Under the pieces are notes generated by a model. It did no database searches, had not been told where the DNA came from, and saw nothing but the letters and a program-made list of their open reading frames with translations. This document shows positions 9,813 through 34,119 of a DNA stretch of 64,000 nucleotides, piece by piece; the stretch's first letter is position 1; the number at the start of each line of letters is the position of its first letter. The translations under genes were made by a program, and so were the position numbers. The stretch is from positions 1 to 64,000 of the forward strand of contig CAJQLA010000015.1 of NCBI GenBank assembly GCA_905479075.1, given 5' to 3'. The stretch comes from an uncultured Gammaproteobacteria bacterium. Lineage in GTDB: Bacteria > Pseudomonadota > Gammaproteobacteria > Nitrosococcales > Methylophagaceae.

Positions 9813-10832
9813 ATGAGCACCTCTAGTCCTATCGCGCATACAGCGCTCGACTTTCGCGGTTTAGCAGAGCTACGTCGTAATGCCAATGAAGAAAGTGATG
9901 AGCAAGAAACATTGAGAGAAGTGGCCGGACAGTTTGAAGCTTTATTTCTCAATATGATGCTAAAAAGTATGCGTCAGGCTAAATTATCTGATGGCATTTT
10001 TGATAGTTCTCAAAGTGAAATGTACCGCGATATGTCGGATCAACAATTAGCCATGGATCTTTCAAAACGAGGAGGCTTAGGTCTTCAGGAAGTCATTATC
10101 AGACAACTAGGCGGTCATCTGGCTGAAAAACTAGATATTTCTACACTATCTGAATCTCAGAAATTACGAACCTTCAATATAGAGACCGTAGATAGACGAC
10201 AAGCTTTGCCAGTGATTGATAAGGCAGCATTGATGGATCAGCTTGATACATTTAAAGCCATGGGTAAAGAAGCTTCCGATCCTATTTCACCTAAAGTGAT
10301 TAACTTTAATTCGCCAGCTGGCTTTGTCCGACAGCTATGGGCGATGGCTGAGCAAGCAGCAGCAAAAATTGGGGTTAAACCAGAGGCTATTTTATCGCAA
10401 GCAGCGTTAGAGACAGGTTGGGGTAAACATGTGCTTACTCAAAAAAATGGTGATTCCAGCCATAACTTATTCAATATAAAAGCACACTCTAGCTGGCGGG
10501 GCGATACCGTATCTGTCGGTACCCTTGAGTATCATGATGGTGTTGCTGTTAAAGAACAGGCGAAATTCAGAGTCTATGATTCATACCAAGATAGCTTTAA
10601 TGATTATGTCGAATTTTTGCAAACGCAACCAAGGTATCGACGAGCTTTAGAACAAGCAACTGATCCTGAATTGTTTATTGAGAGCCTTCATAAAGCAGGT
10701 TATGCAACGGATCCGGATTATGCTGACAAGATAAAACGAATTATGAACAGTGACACTTTGGCACAAATTTCTATGCCAATAGAGCGTTCATCAATGATAA
10801 GTGAAAGTGAATTCACAGGGGCGAGGTCATGA
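9813..10832 (+). CDS. flgJ: Flagellar rod assembly protein / peptidoglycan hydrolase FlgJ
   Basis: A 339-residue two-domain FlgJ. The N-terminal rod-capping domain (about residues 25-100) has EVAGQFEALFLNMMLKSMRQ. The C-terminal glucosaminidase domain (about residues 165-325) has ILSQAALETGWGKHVL with the predicted catalytic Glu, then NLFNIKAHSSW. It guides rod growth and opens the cell wall for the rod. Single-domain FlgJ occurs in some bacteria, so the fused form is informative. Its last four bases overlap the start of flgK. Confidence 0.95.
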   Translation: MSTSSPIAHTALDFRGLAELRRNANEESDEQETLREVAGQFEALFLNMMLKSMRQAKLSDGIFDSSQSEMYRDMSDQQLAMDLSKRGGLGLQEVIIRQLGGHLAEKLDISTLSESQKLRTFNIETVDRRQALPVIDKAALMDQLDTFKAMGKEASDPISPKVINFNSPAGFVRQLWAMAEQAAAKIGVKPEAILSQAALETGWGKHVLTQKNGDSSHNLFNIKAHSSWRGDTVSVGTLEYHDGVAVKEQAKFRVYDSYQDSFNDYVEFLQTQPRYRRALEQATDPELFIESLHKAGYATDPDYADKIKRIMNSDTLAQISMPIERSSMISESEFTGARS

Positions 10833-27696: not shown

Positions 27697-28140
27697 ATGA
27701 AACGCTCACAGAGACTTAGTGTTGTGGTTGAACTGGCTGTTAAAGCAACGGAAGAAGCTTTGTACAAAGTGAGTCAAGCCAATGCTGCATGGAGTCAAGA
27801 TAAGCAGCAGTTAGCTGATTTAAATCAATATAAAGGCGAGTATTTAGTCAAGTTACGTCAGGGTGACCAAGCGACGGTGAGTGGACAAAAAGTGATGGAG
27901 TTGCGAGTATTTCTTGCTCAGTTGGATCAAGCGATCATAGCGCAAGAGCAACAGATTGCTCGGAGCCTAACCCATTTACAGAATATGCAGCAAGAATGGC
28001 GACAAGTCCGAATCAAAGAACAAGCCATGAATTCATTGTTAGCGCGCTACCAACGAGAAGAAAGTCACCAAATTTCAAGACAAGAGCAAAATGAAAGTGA
28101 TGAACACAATAATGCTCAGTGGTTGCGTAAGCAAAAATAA
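27697..28140 (+). CDS. fliJ: Flagellar export protein FliJ
   Basis: A 147-residue, almost entirely coiled-coil protein, rich in Gln, Lys and Glu and without long hydrophobic stretches. Family features are the early LAVKATEEALYKVSQANAAW and the basic central helices; the length equals the enterobacterial protein. FliJ is the gamma-like stalk of the FliI ring and escorts export chaperones. It is separated from fliI by 80 bases with no obvious promoter. Confidence 0.88.
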   Translation: MKRSQRLSVVVELAVKATEEALYKVSQANAAWSQDKQQLADLNQYKGEYLVKLRQGDQATVSGQKVMELRVFLAQLDQAIIAQEQQIARSLTHLQNMQQEWRQVRIKEQAMNSLLARYQREESHQISRQEQNESDEHNNAQWLRKQK

Positions 28141-28182
28141 GCCATTCTGTTATAGTCACATAAATAGAAAACAGAATGAGTG

Positions 28183-29925
28183 ATGATGTCGGTGTCAATT
28201 GAAACGATCAACTGTGGCGATTCTCTAAAGGCAGAAAATTTAGATACACTCTATGCCCGTTTGTTAGTGTCACTGGCTAACGGCGAACAGGTGGCATTAG
28301 ACTGTAGCGAACTTGACTATATTGATACACCTGCTTTGCAAATGTTAGCAGCGTTTTCACAAGAGGCTGCACTTCATGGACATACTGTCACATGGGATAA
28401 AACAAGCGTAGTGTTTCGAAAAAACGTGCGTTTATTAGGTTTGGAACATGACCTGAAAACCATTGATACAAAGTCGATTGCAAGTGAAGAGCAGTTGACG
28501 CAGGGATGGGATATCTCTTTTTCACCGCACATTAATTTTTTCCATGAAAGTATAAAAGATCCCCTCCAAATTTTTGCTGAATTAGCCAGTATGGGTGAGT
28601 CAGTTGTGGACGTGGATAATCGCCCTTTACCCTTATTTTCAGAAATTGAGCCAGACAATAGTTATTTATCATGGCAACTGACTTTGAAAGGTGATGCAGT
28701 AAAAGAAGATATCGAGACTATTTTTGCTTCCGTCGTTCAGTATTGTGAATTGGCTATAAAACGGATAGTTACAGACGTCGATCCAGAGACTGAAATAACA
28801 CCACAGTCACAGTCACAGTCAGCATTGGCTCAACCCAAAAACAAAGAAATTGAAACCTTACTTAGGGTGAATGATGAAAAGCTTGATCGCTTAACTGGTT
28901 TAATGGATCAAATGCTAGTTAAGCAGCATAAAGTTAGTCAGCAGTTTAATGATCAAATGTTACCCCAAACGAACGATGCGATAGTTGAATTAGAAAATAG
29001 TACCCGAGAAATGCAAGAAGCTGTTATGCAGCTACGCTACTTACCGATGGGATCTATTTTTAATGGTTTAGCTGAATACGTCACTGGTCTTGTAACCAAG
29101 TTGTCTAAAAAAATTGAGTTTAAATTATCTGGTGAGCAAATCGAACTTGATGTTGCTGCACTAGCAATCGTTGATGAATCGTTACGAATACTTTTACACG
29201 GCTGTGTTCAAAATAGCATAGTAACAAGTGATCTTCGCATAGCCGCAGAAAAGCCTGAGATAGCTTCACTTCAGCTTATTGTATTTCAACGTGATACAAG
29301 TATTATCATAGAGCTGACTGATGATGGTTGTGGTGAAATAGAGGAGCTTGAGACAGGCCTGGACACTGTCCGGAATAAGATAACAACTTTAGGTGGCAGT
29401 ATTGATATCAAGTCTCAAATAGATGAACAGACAACATACTCCATTCAGCTACCTATGCATTTAGGTGTGATAGATGGACAGCTTATTCGAGTAGCTGGAG
29501 AGACATACATTTTGCCCGTGAGCTTAGTAATTGAGTCTTTGGCAATCAATATCAATGATATTAGCGATATTGCTGGCAAAGGTGAATTATATAGATGGCA
29601 AGATGACTATATTCCTATTATTCGTCTTGCCCGTTTGCTATCAACACAGCCAACGACAACTGAGTTAGGACAAGGATTATTGGTGGTGGTCAATATCGAT
29701 GATCAGAAAGTGGGTTTATTACTTGATGATGTACTGGAGCAACAGCGTATTTACAGCCAGACTTTAGCAATACACTATAAGAATATTGCAGGTGTATCGG
29801 CTGCGGCAATAATGAATGATGCCTCTGTTGCTTTGATTTTAGACTTGCCAAACTTGATCGGACACTATCGAAATTCGACTAGTACTCATTTTGATTCTGC
29901 TAACAGTGGCAACAAGGTGGCCTGA
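28183..29925 (+). CDS. STAS-domain CheA-like protein without phosphotransfer domain (probable pseudokinase)
   Basis: About 580 residues. Residues 1 to about 95 form a STAS domain (ALDCSELDYIDTPALQML, with Thr where SpoIIAA has its phosphorylated Ser). Residues about 105-195 match the CheA segment before the dimerisation helices (GWDISFSPHINFF, YLSWQLTLKGD). P3 follows (LLRVNDEKLDRLTGLMDQML), then a P4 ATPase-like domain and a P5 CheW-like domain (GVIDGQLIRVAGETYILPVS). No Hpt His motif is present. The N box reads LLHGCVQNSI near residue 340 instead of the usual HLVRNAVDHGI, and the G2 glycines are absent; only DDGCG (near 380) remains of the ATP site. It is probably structural, not a kinase. 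Starts at 28180, 28183 and 28186 are all possible. Confidence 0.82.
   Translation: MMSVSIETINCGDSLKAENLDTLYARLLVSLANGEQVALDCSELDYIDTPALQMLAAFSQEAALHGHTVTWDKTSVVFRKNVRLLGLEHDLKTIDTKSIASEEQLTQGWDISFSPHINFFHESIKDPLQIFAELASMGESVVDVDNRPLPLFSEIEPDNSYLSWQLTLKGDAVKEDIETIFASVVQYCELAIKRIVTDVDPETEITPQSQSQSALAQPKNKEIETLLRVNDEKLDRLTGLMDQMLVKQHKVSQQFNDQMLPQTNDAIVELENSTREMQEAVMQLRYLPMGSIFNGLAEYVTGLVTKLSKKIEFKLSGEQIELDVAALAIVDESLRILLHGCVQNSIVTSDLRIAAEKPEIASLQLIVFQRDTSIIIELTDDGCGEIEELETGLDTVRNKITTLGGSIDIKSQIDEQTTYSIQLPMHLGVIDGQLIRVAGETYILPVSLVIESLAININDISDIAGKGELYRWQDDYIPIIRLARLLSTQPTTTELGQGLLVVVNIDDQKVGLLLDDVLEQQRIYSQTLAIHYKNIAGVSAAAIMNDASVALILDLPNLIGHYRNSTSTHFDSANSGNKVA
28802..28822 (+). repeat. CACAGT hexamer repeat in the CheA-like linker
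   Basis: Three and a half tandem copies of CACAGT encode Gln-Ser repeats in the flexible linker before the P3 helices. Changes in copy number would keep the reading frame. Confidence 0.7.
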
Positions 29926-29936
29926 GGTGTTATGAA

Positions 29937-30434
29937 ATGAATGGTTTACACCTATTAAGTAATTCGGTGGATCAGTTAGCAGGCCCACAGGAAAATATTA
30001 CACATTGTTTGATGTTTAGTTTGGCTGATGAAGAATATGCCGTTGATATGTTACGCGTTAGAGAAGTCAAAGTCTTGGATACAGTGACCACCTTACCCAA
30101 CACGCCAGATTATATCCGCGGTGTTTTTAACTTTCATGGTGACATTGTTCCAGTTATTGATTTGCGTCTTCTATTAGGCGCGGACGAACAGAAGCAGACA
30201 TCAAAATCTATTGCATTAGTATTGAGACTGGATAGCGCTAATAACAGGCTGGTCGCTGCGTTGGTAGATGATGTATTAGAACCACTGGATATAGCAGATG
30301 AGGATATAAAGGCTGTACCAGATTTTAATTCTAAAATAGACACCTCTTGTATACATGGCTTGGTCTCCATTAATGGTAAAGTGAAAGTAATTTTAAATGT
30401 AGAACAGCTATTAAGTCGGGAAGCCTTAGGCTAA
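29937..30434 (+). CDS. cheW: Chemotaxis coupling protein CheW
   Basis: A 165-residue CheW with the usual two beta-barrel halves: LMFSLADEEYAVDMLRVREV at residues 25-44, IVPVIDLRLLLG near 70, and a C-terminal HGLVSINGKVKVILNVEQLL. It links receptors to CheA. His67 (NFHG) stands where the receptor-binding Arg62 of the E. coli protein lies (NLRG), an unusual change. It starts 11 bases after the CheA-like gene and precedes a receptor gene, so it likely serves this local set rather than the main array. Confidence 0.92.
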   Translation: MNGLHLLSNSVDQLAGPQENITHCLMFSLADEEYAVDMLRVREVKVLDTVTTLPNTPDYIRGVFNFHGDIVPVIDLRLLLGADEQKQTSKSIALVLRLDSANNRLVAALVDDVLEPLDIADEDIKAVPDFNSKIDTSCIHGLVSINGKVKVILNVEQLLSREALG

Positions 30435-30619: not shown

Positions 30620-32371
30620 ATGGCGATTAAATTGACCGAGATAAAAAGACAAGCAGGAGTTAGGTCTAATGTCGCCGAGTCAATCGATAGAGGTAAAACA
30701 CAAGTTGAACTGGTAAAAGATAGTTTTGCTGAACTATCAAAACAGGGTGAAGCTTTATCTACGCGGTTTTATGAACGTTTTTTCCTGCAATACCCACAAA
30801 TAGTCCCCCTATTTGAAGGTGTCTCTACCACAGGCCAACAAAAAAAATTCCTAGCTTCTCTTGTTTTGATAGTGCAAAGTCTGGATCAAAAAGAAATTTT
30901 CAATGATTACCTTTTAGGGCTTAGCGAAAGACACATTCATTATGGTGTGAAGAAAGAATACTATCCAATGATAGTGGAAAATCTGCTGGCGGTTTTTGCA
31001 GAATTTTCAGGGAAGAAATGGACGGCGCAGCTAAGCCAAGCTTGGGAAAATACACTTAATAGCATTACTGCCGTCATGCTAAGTGCCTACACGGAATCTG
31101 ATAATAGTGAAGTGGCGGGCGTTAGTGAAGATATACAAGCACCACAGTCGTGGGATGCATCATTATTAAACGCTGTAACAACAGCGGTGATGATGATTGA
31201 TCGAGATGGTAATATTACTTTTGCTAATCAATCAGCGATCGATAAGTTGACTCAATACCGTAGTGAGTTACAGCCAATTATTCCAGACTTGAATATTGAT
31301 AAATTAGTCGGCAGTAATGTCAATCATTTTCCTAAAACACTCTCAGTAAGATGGGCATCTCTTTCAGCGCCTGAGAGGCTACCTTATAAAACAGAGTTGG
31401 AAGTAGGCCCATTGCTCGTACATTTAACGATGACAGCTGTTATAGATGAACGAGGGAAATATATAGGCACTGCATTAGAATGGGAAGAACAGTCAGAGCT
31501 TGCTGATACTAATGAGTCTTCAAATAAGATGATGTCAGCATTGCTTGATAGTCTCGAGGCCATGTCTAAGGGCGATCTGACAAAAAGGTTGAGCGATTTT
31601 CATGACAACGATTTTACTTTATTACAGGCATCAATTAATAGCGAATTAGACAAAATAGCCCAGCAGATAACAGAAAGCAGTGATAACCCCTCAAGTACTG
31701 GACAAGCTTCTGTAGCAATCAGCGAAGCTAGCAAGCAGCTTGGTGAGGGGATAGAGGATCAATTATCCTTATTACGAGACAATGGTTCGATTCTCGAAGC
31801 ATTAACAAGTAGCTTGCAGCAAAATATCGCTAATGCGAACTCAGCAACACAGTTTAGTAGTGAGTTGCTTGAACAGGCTGAGAATGGCAGTCTGACGATG
31901 ACACAAGCGATTGAGTCTATAACCGTACTTAATACATCGACGCAAGGAATGGCTGACCTCATTACTAATATTGAGCAAATGGCATTTCAAACTAATTTAT
32001 TGGGTTTAAATGCTGCGGTTGAGGCGACACATGCTGGTGAACAGGGCCGTGGCATGGCTGTTATCGCAGCCGAAATTCGTAGTTTTGCTAAGCAAATAAC
32101 AGCACAAGCACAAGATATTAAAGATCTGATTAATGCCAATGAAGCGAGTATGCAACAGAGTTACCAGCTAGTTGATAAATCCGGCCATTCAATACTTGAT
32201 ATTGTGACTGGTTCCGAAAAAGTAAACGAAATCGCTTCCGAAATTGCAGCAGTCGCTACAGAGCAAACTCAGAAAATAGAACAAATAAATAAAGCATTGG
32301 CAAAAGTGAACGAGTTAGCGGAATCTAATACTGACATAGCCAAACAAATTTCAGATACTGATATAGCCTAA
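30620..32371 (+). CDS. Soluble chemoreceptor with flavohaemoglobin-type globin and PAS domains
   Basis: A 583-residue methyl-accepting chemotaxis protein with no membrane segment. Residues about 28-150 are a globin of the flavohaemoglobin class: Tyr51 (FYERF), Gln74 (GQQKKFL) and His105 (ERHIHYGV) align with the haem-pocket B10 Tyr, E7 Gln and F8 His of E. coli Hmp. A PAS domain follows (about 172-290, AVMMIDRDGNITFANQSA). The signalling domain has the hairpin tip QTNLLGLNAAVEATHAGEQG, where His471 replaces the normally invariant Arg (VEAAR). It probably senses oxygen, NO or redox state in the cytoplasm and signals through the adjacent CheW. It lacks a recognisable CheR-docking pentapeptide at the end. 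Confidence 0.88.
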   Translation: MAIKLTEIKRQAGVRSNVAESIDRGKTQVELVKDSFAELSKQGEALSTRFYERFFLQYPQIVPLFEGVSTTGQQKKFLASLVLIVQSLDQKEIFNDYLLGLSERHIHYGVKKEYYPMIVENLLAVFAEFSGKKWTAQLSQAWENTLNSITAVMLSAYTESDNSEVAGVSEDIQAPQSWDASLLNAVTTAVMMIDRDGNITFANQSAIDKLTQYRSELQPIIPDLNIDKLVGSNVNHFPKTLSVRWASLSAPERLPYKTELEVGPLLVHLTMTAVIDERGKYIGTALEWEEQSELADTNESSNKMMSALLDSLEAMSKGDLTKRLSDFHDNDFTLLQASINSELDKIAQQITESSDNPSSTGQASVAISEASKQLGEGIEDQLSLLRDNGSILEALTSSLQQNIANANSATQFSSELLEQAENGSLTMTQAIESITVLNTSTQGMADLITNIEQMAFQTNLLGLNAAVEATHAGEQGRGMAVIAAEIRSFAKQITAQAQDIKDLINANEASMQQSYQLVDKSGHSILDIVTGSEKVNEIASEIAAVATEQTQKIEQINKALAKVNELAESNTDIAKQISDTDIA

Positions 32372-32472: not shown

Positions 32473-34119
32473 ATGAATCACGAGCTTTTATTAAATACAG
32501 AAACACCAAAAATAGATAATAAGCCCGTTGTTAAACCTGCATCTTCATTAGAGACAGATAAGCCGGAAAGTACATCACAGCGTGCATTCTCATCAGAGTT
32601 AAATGAGCAGGTCAGTCAACAATTCAATTCAAAAGACGAACATGTAGTTCCATCGAATAATCGATCAGACGTTGCTACGGTTGTAACTGGGTCCGATCGA
32701 AAAGCGGAAGCGAAAAATAAGGAAAACGGCAAGCCATTGCCGGAAAATGGGTTGGGTGAGTCGACGCTAGGTCAAGCCATTGCGCATATTGTTAAGCAAG
32801 TGCCGCCAGAAGATAAAGGCACGGTTAAAGAAGCTTTATTATCCGTTATAGAAGATTTTAAGAATCATGCTAAGGGTAAAGGTCAGGCAACAGAAGTCGC
32901 ACCGACAGAGAATATTCCCAAACTTATTGAACAATTTGCTGATATTGTTGCCGCTAGCCCCGCTTCACAAGCTAGTAAGACCATACCTGAGGATGGTTTA
33001 CAAACTGATAAACCTATACAAAATATAAACGCCGTAGCGGCAAGCAGCGACTTAGAAGAAATAGATAGTATTCAGAAACAATTACTGTCATCGCTGGGGA
33101 GCATTACCGACAATAAAGCTGATCAGTTCACTGATAAAGCTGCAGTCCCTCAACTGGTACAGCAGATCAAAGAACTCACTGCACAAGTAAAAGTAATAGT
33201 AGCGAATGAGCGATTATCAAACACAGAAAATAAGAATGATCTAGGAAAGACCATTGCTGATTGGATGAAGAAAATTGGTGAATTAGCTAAGACAGCATCA
33301 GGACAAACAGTAGTGACATCCGATACGGATGCAAAATTGAAAGAAAATATCCTGAGTACTGGGCAAGATACAAAAGAGTTAAAAATAAGGCCCGATATTC
33401 TTCAAGCTTTAGCCAATAAAGTGGCAGGTGATGAGTCAAAGCAAGGGCAAACGGCTTTGGGAGACAAAGTTATTCAAAAAGTGACTGATCAAGGCAGCGA
33501 GAGGGCTATAGAAAGAGTGACTCAGCTAGCTGGGTTAATAAAGCCAGAGAAGCAGGAATCACAGTCAACAAATCGTACGCCTAATGATAAAGGTAGAGTG
33601 CCAACATTTGGACCAGCACTCATCAATTCAGCACCTTTAACGACTGATACTGGGCCAAGAACGGCAGCAACGCTTGATATCCAACCTGCATTGCAGAGTC
33701 AAGCATGGAGTAAAGTCGTCGGTAGTCGCGTTATTTGGATGGCTAAAGAGGGTATACAGAAAGCATCATTGCAACTAAACCCTGCAAACTTAGGCCCTGT
33801 AGAAGTCCGGCTTAGTGTACAAAATGAACAGACCAATGTGATGTTTATTGCTCAGCAAGCAGCGACTAGAGATGCATTGGAACAAGCCTTACCGAGACTG
33901 CGTGAAAGTTTTGCCGAAAATGGCTTAGATTTGGCTGATGCGGATGTTATGGAACAGTTTCAAGGCAATGATGATAGTGAGCAAACTGATGCTGATCCGC
34001 AAAATCATGGTTTAAATGAAAATAATATCGCGATGGCAGTTGATGCCGTTGAAAATGGCGAAGTCGACGAGTTATTAAATCAACAAGAAGGCGCTGTTGG
34101 CCTGAGCGTGTACGCTTAA
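32473..34119 (+). CDS. fliK: Flagellar hook-length control protein FliK
   Basis: A 548-residue molecular ruler. The N-terminal two thirds are low-complexity, Lys/Glu/Gln/Thr rich and probably extended, as expected for a ruler. The C-terminal substrate-switch domain (about 410-500) has KASLQLNPANLGPVEVRLSV and ALPRLRESFAENGLDLADAD. It is longer than the Salmonella protein (about 405 residues). It is the last flagellar gene here; the next gene is convergent pyrF. Confidence 0.93.
   Translation: MNHELLLNTETPKIDNKPVVKPASSLETDKPESTSQRAFSSELNEQVSQQFNSKDEHVVPSNNRSDVATVVTGSDRKAEAKNKENGKPLPENGLGESTLGQAIAHIVKQVPPEDKGTVKEALLSVIEDFKNHAKGKGQATEVAPTENIPKLIEQFADIVAASPASQASKTIPEDGLQTDKPIQNINAVAASSDLEEIDSIQKQLLSSLGSITDNKADQFTDKAAVPQLVQQIKELTAQVKVIVANERLSNTENKNDLGKTIADWMKKIGELAKTASGQTVVTSDTDAKLKENILSTGQDTKELKIRPDILQALANKVAGDESKQGQTALGDKVIQKVTDQGSERAIERVTQLAGLIKPEKQESQSTNRTPNDKGRVPTFGPALINSAPLTTDTGPRTAATLDIQPALQSQAWSKVVGSRVIWMAKEGIQKASLQLNPANLGPVEVRLSVQNEQTNVMFIAQQAATRDALEQALPRLRESFAENGLDLADADVMEQFQGNDDSEQTDADPQNHGLNENNIAMAVDAVENGEVDELLNQQEGAVGLSVYA

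Follow-up and report, generated by a model that had tools for sequence, protein, structure and literature searches.

A STAS domain fused in frame to a predicted kinase-dead CheA in a reduced F7 chemotaxis cluster

The fusion gene and its closest described relatives

Stage-1 F7 chemotaxis clusters have been described in Vibrio and Methylomicrobium (Ortega 2020, PMC7184735), with the ancestral F7 system described there as having an unknown role. A survey that covered thousands of CheA proteins found P1, P3, P4 and P5 always present and ascribed cases of missing Hpt to contig ends or a split gene, and the same source (PMC10782961) records that CheA3 and CheA4 of Rhodobacter sphaeroides, which lack canonical domains or have a degenerate P3-P4, still join cytoplasmic clusters. 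In Sinorhizobium meliloti the STAS protein CheS is reported to bind CheA (review PMC12654446); it is a separate protein and helps a live kinase sort two CheYs. Small STAS proteins of this kind are encoded in chemotaxis clusters of other Alphaproteobacteria as well.

The window, a stretch of 64,000 nucleotides, holds between fliJ and fliK a gene that joins a STAS domain to a P2-like domain and P3, P4 and P5 of CheA, followed by cheW and a receptor gene. At this locus, relatives display the STAS-cheY-cheA-cheW-receptor-cheR-cheD-cheB order of stage-1 F7. Unlike stage-1 F7, the window has lost cheY, cheR, cheD, cheB, parA and the second receptor along with the Hpt domain and the ATP site, and its receptor sensor consists of a globin and a PAS domain. 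Its STAS domain resembles CheS in belonging to a chemotaxis cluster, but it is fused to a predicted dead kinase and has no CheY. The degenerate P3-P4 recalls CheA3 and CheA4, but these two together make one working kinase, whereas no partner was seen for the window protein. We read the fusion protein as the probable CheA of a reduced stage-1 F7 (Aer2-type) system, with STAS joined in frame at the Hpt-P2 linker. No description of a STAS-CheA fusion was found in the literature searched. The protein does not obey the rule of the survey, although the genome that encodes it has a reported completeness of 99.99% and relatives display intermediate steps. The features are as follows.

27697..28140, + strand: fliJ, conserved left flank of the cluster
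28183..29925, + strand: STAS::CheA(P2-P3-P4*-P5) fusion gene, 580 aa, without Hpt (open frame, Pfam, phmmer, alignment)
28195..28470, + strand: STAS domain, about residues 5-96, best read as CheS-like (Pfam STAS_2, 4e-13)
28498..28770, + strand: P2-like domain of F7 CheA, about residues 106-196 (predicted ferredoxin-like)
28846..29040, + strand: P3 dimerisation helices, about residues 222-286, strongly diverged (H-kinase_dim, alignment)
29041..29460, + strand: P4, about residues 287-426, GHKL fold kept (alignment, predicted structure)
29188-29217, + strand: N box of P4, lost (alignment with relatives)
29320-29334, + strand: G1 box of P4, kept (alignment with relatives)
29461..29877, + strand: P5, CheW-like regulatory domain, about residues 427-565, fold intact (Pfam, predicted structure)
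29937..30434, + strand: cheW, 11 bp 3' of the fusion gene (Pfam CheW, 2.8e-30)
30620..32371, + strand: globin-PAS-MCP receptor with Aer2-like signalling domain (Pfam, comparison with relatives)
32473..34119, + strand: fliK, conserved right flank of the cluster

The fusion frame begins at 28180 (GTG) or 28183 (ATG) and ends at 29925. Besides the STAS_2 match, Pfam recovered CheW/P5 (4e-19), P3 (H-kinase_dim, 2.6e-4, slightly below the curated cut-off) and a weak HATPase_c match (E 0.02), and no Hpt model matched the protein. A phmmer search aligned residues 166-558 to CheA of E. coli and T. maritima (4e-48). These searches bear out the earlier note, made from the same DNA, in its description of a STAS domain fused to P3, P4 and P5 of CheA with no Hpt His motif; it left out the P2-like domain that separates STAS from P3. 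In an AlphaFold2 model of the fusion protein (mean pLDDT 79.7), P4 matched CheA P4 chains (Z about 22, rmsd 1.2-1.9 A) and P5 matched 4jpb_A (Z 20.1, rmsd 1.5 A over 131 residues). The P2-like domain, modelled by itself with a pLDDT of 88, had no Pfam model and no sequence match among solved structures, and in structural comparison gave matches only to generic ferredoxin-like folds. The globin of the receptor retains a proximal-type His.

Loss of kinase residues and origin of the fusion

Of the features that mark a CheA, the fusion protein has the CheW-like P5 domain and the GHKL fold of P4 and lacks the N box, the lid and F box, G2, and an Hpt domain with its His. The reference alignment comprised 17 relatives with full-length CheA, among them G024, itself altered in the N box and G2. 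Against the intact relatives, residues 336-345 read ILLHGCVQNS for HLVRNSLDHG, with His replaced by Ile, Arg by His, Asn by Gly, Asp by Gln, His by Asn and Gly by Ser, and both the ATP lid and the F box have been deleted. The G2 motif GRGVGMD has become ETGLD, so that the paired glycines are lost and one of three glycines is left. The earlier note was thus right about the degenerate N box and the missing G2 glycines, and it did not record the G1 box, DDGCG, which is retained. Judged from its residues, the protein is almost certainly unable to autophosphorylate. Its description as a pseudokinase agrees with these residues and with the loss of Hpt, CheY, CheR, CheB and CheD.

In the genus and in nearby genera, the fliJ-fliK locus carries STAS, cheY, cheA (about 700 aa), cheW, a gene for a ParA-like ATPase, a globin (PAS) receptor, cheR, cheD and cheB, together with a second receptor and, in some species, additional STAS genes. 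This is the published stage-1 F7 order (PMC7184735), but with a ParA gene in place of the second cheW; a Vibrio cluster has the matching order with two cheW genes, and the CheA of one relative, G017, is 49% identical to a Vibrio F7 CheA. The orthologous loci thus display the stage-1 order and an Aer2-like receptor of F7, and CheR, CheB, CheD and CheY are missing from the window copy.

In a tree of flagellar proteins the window species forms one clade with G010, G011 and G016 (support 99-100), all four of which lack CheY7, CheR, CheD, CheB and a working ATP site. Hpt persists as a decayed remnant in G010 and G016, is lost in G011, and has STAS in its place in the window. Across relatives, the spacing of STAS and CheA passes from a cheY-sized spacer to a gap of 11 bp (G016) or overlaps of 11 bp (G010) and 4 bp (G011) and then to one frame, a step that would have been a short deletion through the STAS stop. 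The fusion was found in one of 369 genomes sampled across the class; 76 of the 369 have a similar STAS, and none of these holds another fusion. A scan of a genome collection for named relatives returned no more than two distant CheA matches. The earlier note had asked whether the fusion is conserved beside fliJ and fliK: the position of the cluster is conserved, and the fusion itself was found only in this genome.

G035 and G015 are each sister to species with intact CheA, and their predicted loss of the kinase is independent of that in the window clade. In G035 the STAS gene is kept and overlaps by 4 bp a CheA of 301 aa that is reduced to P2 and P5 (G035:C3 8924-9829); the globin receptor next to it is short, and its tip is degraded. 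The CheA of G015 (G015:C44 8254-9945) lacks Hpt and has an altered G2 (GFGVDMGD), with CheY7 still present; its sister genome G005 is intact. In G032 (G032:C88 2419-4519) CheA lies in two frames with a break within P3/P4, possibly a frameshift or a sequencing error.

The STAS domain, constraint and competing explanations

The gene that precedes cheY-cheA is homologous to the window STAS, with a match of 1e-16 in Vibrio and a weak one (1e-5) in Ruegeria, where the cluster has the same STAS-cheY-cheA order as in relatives. The binding site of CheS on CheA reportedly lies between P1 and P3. In the fusion, STAS immediately precedes P2, an order that fits docking. In a mirror-tree test of 17 species with full-length CheA, with the flagellar signal removed and several comparisons made, P2 distances tracked STAS (0.60, Mantel p 0.001) more closely than CheY (0.32) or P3-P4 (0.10), and STAS also tracked P5 (0.72) and Hpt. 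The STAS domain is best read as CheS-like, with a predicted role in docking to CheA.

We compared amino-acid divergence within the dead-kinase clade with that in intact species. The ratio was 0.95 for the globin and 0.75-1.1 for flagellar controls; 1.6 for STAS, 2.0 for CheW and 2.1 for P2; and 3.3 for P5, 3.9 for P4, 8.0 for P3 and 9.9 for the receptor signalling domain. The globin sensor is thus constrained in dead-kinase species as in their intact relatives. In GY94 fits to the four-species clade, omega = 1 was rejected for every part (2dlnL 19-228), with distances saturated for several parts, the omega values themselves unreliable and some of the branches perhaps older than the death of the kinase. 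The receptor tip, to which CheW and P5 bind in model systems, retains 74% of the consensus residues, as against 41% in the remainder of the signalling domain. Together, the ratios and the conserved tip indicate that the sensor, STAS and the coupling parts are best held and that the phosphorelay core has slackened. Since P3 and the receptor signalling domain are needed for normal packing and are strongly relaxed, arrays may no longer form. The earlier placing of the protein with receptors remains supported by its linkage to cheW and the globin receptor, by the predicted P5 fold and by the relatively conserved tip.

With modest confidence we favour a model in which a reduced, kinase-dead F7 CheA acts as a scaffold that would hold the fused STAS on a complex of CheW and a haem-globin receptor. 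On the evidence of the sequences, the ancestral state was a small CheS-like STAS protein, CheY and full CheA as separate neighbours between fliJ and fliK; cheY, cheR, cheD, cheB and kinase activity were then lost before the in-frame join. P5 and CheW would still bind the receptor tip, and P2 may dock the covalently attached STAS. O2 or NO at the globin would alter the exposure or spacing of STAS, which would then bind or release a putative target, with no part played by phosphotransfer. Because all has been lost but the sensor, the coupling parts and STAS, it is STAS that is pointed to as the output. The stressosome protein RsbR, which combines a globin-like fold with STAS in a large complex, is similar in coupling a globin fold to a STAS output, but in the window the two lie in separate proteins, bridged by CheW and P5 in our proposal, and no RsbT-like kinase was found. 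Against the scaffold model stand the relaxed P3 and receptor signalling domain, the loss of parA and the presence of the fusion in a single genome. More tentatively, the arrangement of a haem-globin receptor acting through CheW and dead CheA on STAS without phosphotransfer may have arisen more than once following the loss of CheY, although we regard this general form as doubtful. The fused dead CheA hints that chemoreceptors may signal without any phosphate transfer.

The main rival to the scaffold is slow decay, in which the F7 genes have been drifting since the phosphorelay lost its job and the fusion is a by-product of deletion with no function or a residual one. It is a lesser but serious possibility. 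It suits P3, P4 and a receptor signalling domain that are all strongly relaxed, and also the further losses among relatives, where the CheA of G035 comprises only P2 and P5 and G007 keeps only parA; where a genome has no match to fliI, a strong match to the cluster is missing too, and the host has deleted its F6 genes as well. Decay accounts poorly, however, for 580-codon, cheW and receptor frames that are intact in a 1.9-Mb genome purged of other che genes, for the retention of the same dead set by four diverged species, and for the rejection of neutrality in every part with globin constraint unchanged. In G007 itself, the ParA-like gene (G007:C4 9690-10448) is the sole F7 remnant between fliJ and fliK.

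A partner switch would make STAS an anti-sigma-factor antagonist whose Thr49 is phosphorylated by a small GHKL kinase, in the style of SpoIIAA/RsbV or RsbR/RsbT. The Thr of YIDTPAL (28318-28338, within the STAS domain) does sit at the SpoIIAA-type site, as the earlier note had observed, and faces the Ser of TM1442 in the alignment. Genes called anti-sigma factor antagonists occur in stage-1 F7 clusters (PMC7184735), and Shewanella Che1 has been linked to CrsR/CrsA (PMC9855816). A count by eye over 26 family members, however, gave Ala at this position in 12, Thr in 12 and Gly in 2, and a scripted count gave 12, 11 and 2 with one row misread; Vibrio has Ala there and Ruegeria lacks the site, so that the conserved Ser/Thr after Asp of the SpoIIAA/RsbV family is lacking. 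A search of the host genome for a cognate small GHKL serine kinase (PF13581) gave matches only in frames that range from 352 to 1273 aa and never have the size of RsbW, and the sole SpoIIE-type match is a PP2C that shares one protein with a Ser/Thr kinase and is encoded next to nitrate-transport-like genes. With Ala at the site in half of the family and no small RsbW/SpoIIAB-type kinase, the proposal that STAS is tuned by phosphorylation loses its footing; we rejected such a switch as the main reading on the Ala or Gly at the site and the lack of an RsbW-sized kinase, and consider it very unlikely. It is also highly improbable that another CheA supplies P4 or Hpt, on the precedent of CheA3 and CheA4 (PMC10782961): the host does encode a ChpA-like CheA with several Hpt domains, but this belongs to the different, type IV pilus class, no F6- or F7-type CheY remains, and the fusion protein offers neither Hpt nor a working P4. 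Every Hpt match in the host genome falls elsewhere, within a long frame of 850-1080 aa, and none was a candidate for a separate Hpt partner. An assembly or consensus error that merged two genes would explain why the fusion is seen in one genome only, and yet it is scarcely credible, as an in-frame linker connects STAS to CheA with neither cheY nor Hpt remaining between them, and the overlapping or 11-bp-spaced STAS and cheA of sister species make the join a small step.

Chemotaxis genes in the host genome

The 1.9-Mb host genome keeps its flagella genes and encodes two receptors, the globin receptor of the window and one beside CheW-like and CheY-like genes that resemble pilG, pilH, pilI and pilJ. 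At the F6 locus the order is flhB-flhA-flhF-fleN-fliA, then 256 bp, then motC-motD; the F6 chemotaxis genes are gone, with a weak remnant of the cheB C-terminus between fliA and motC (G000:C2:28000-47000, 10255-10512), and the flagellar and motor genes around them are intact. Neither an F6-like CheY nor an F6 motility system elsewhere was found in the host genome. FliM (G000:C2:46000-51000) nevertheless retains the N-terminal segment ILSQDEVDALL, and its persistence without an F6-like CheY suggests that the loss of F6 may be recent.
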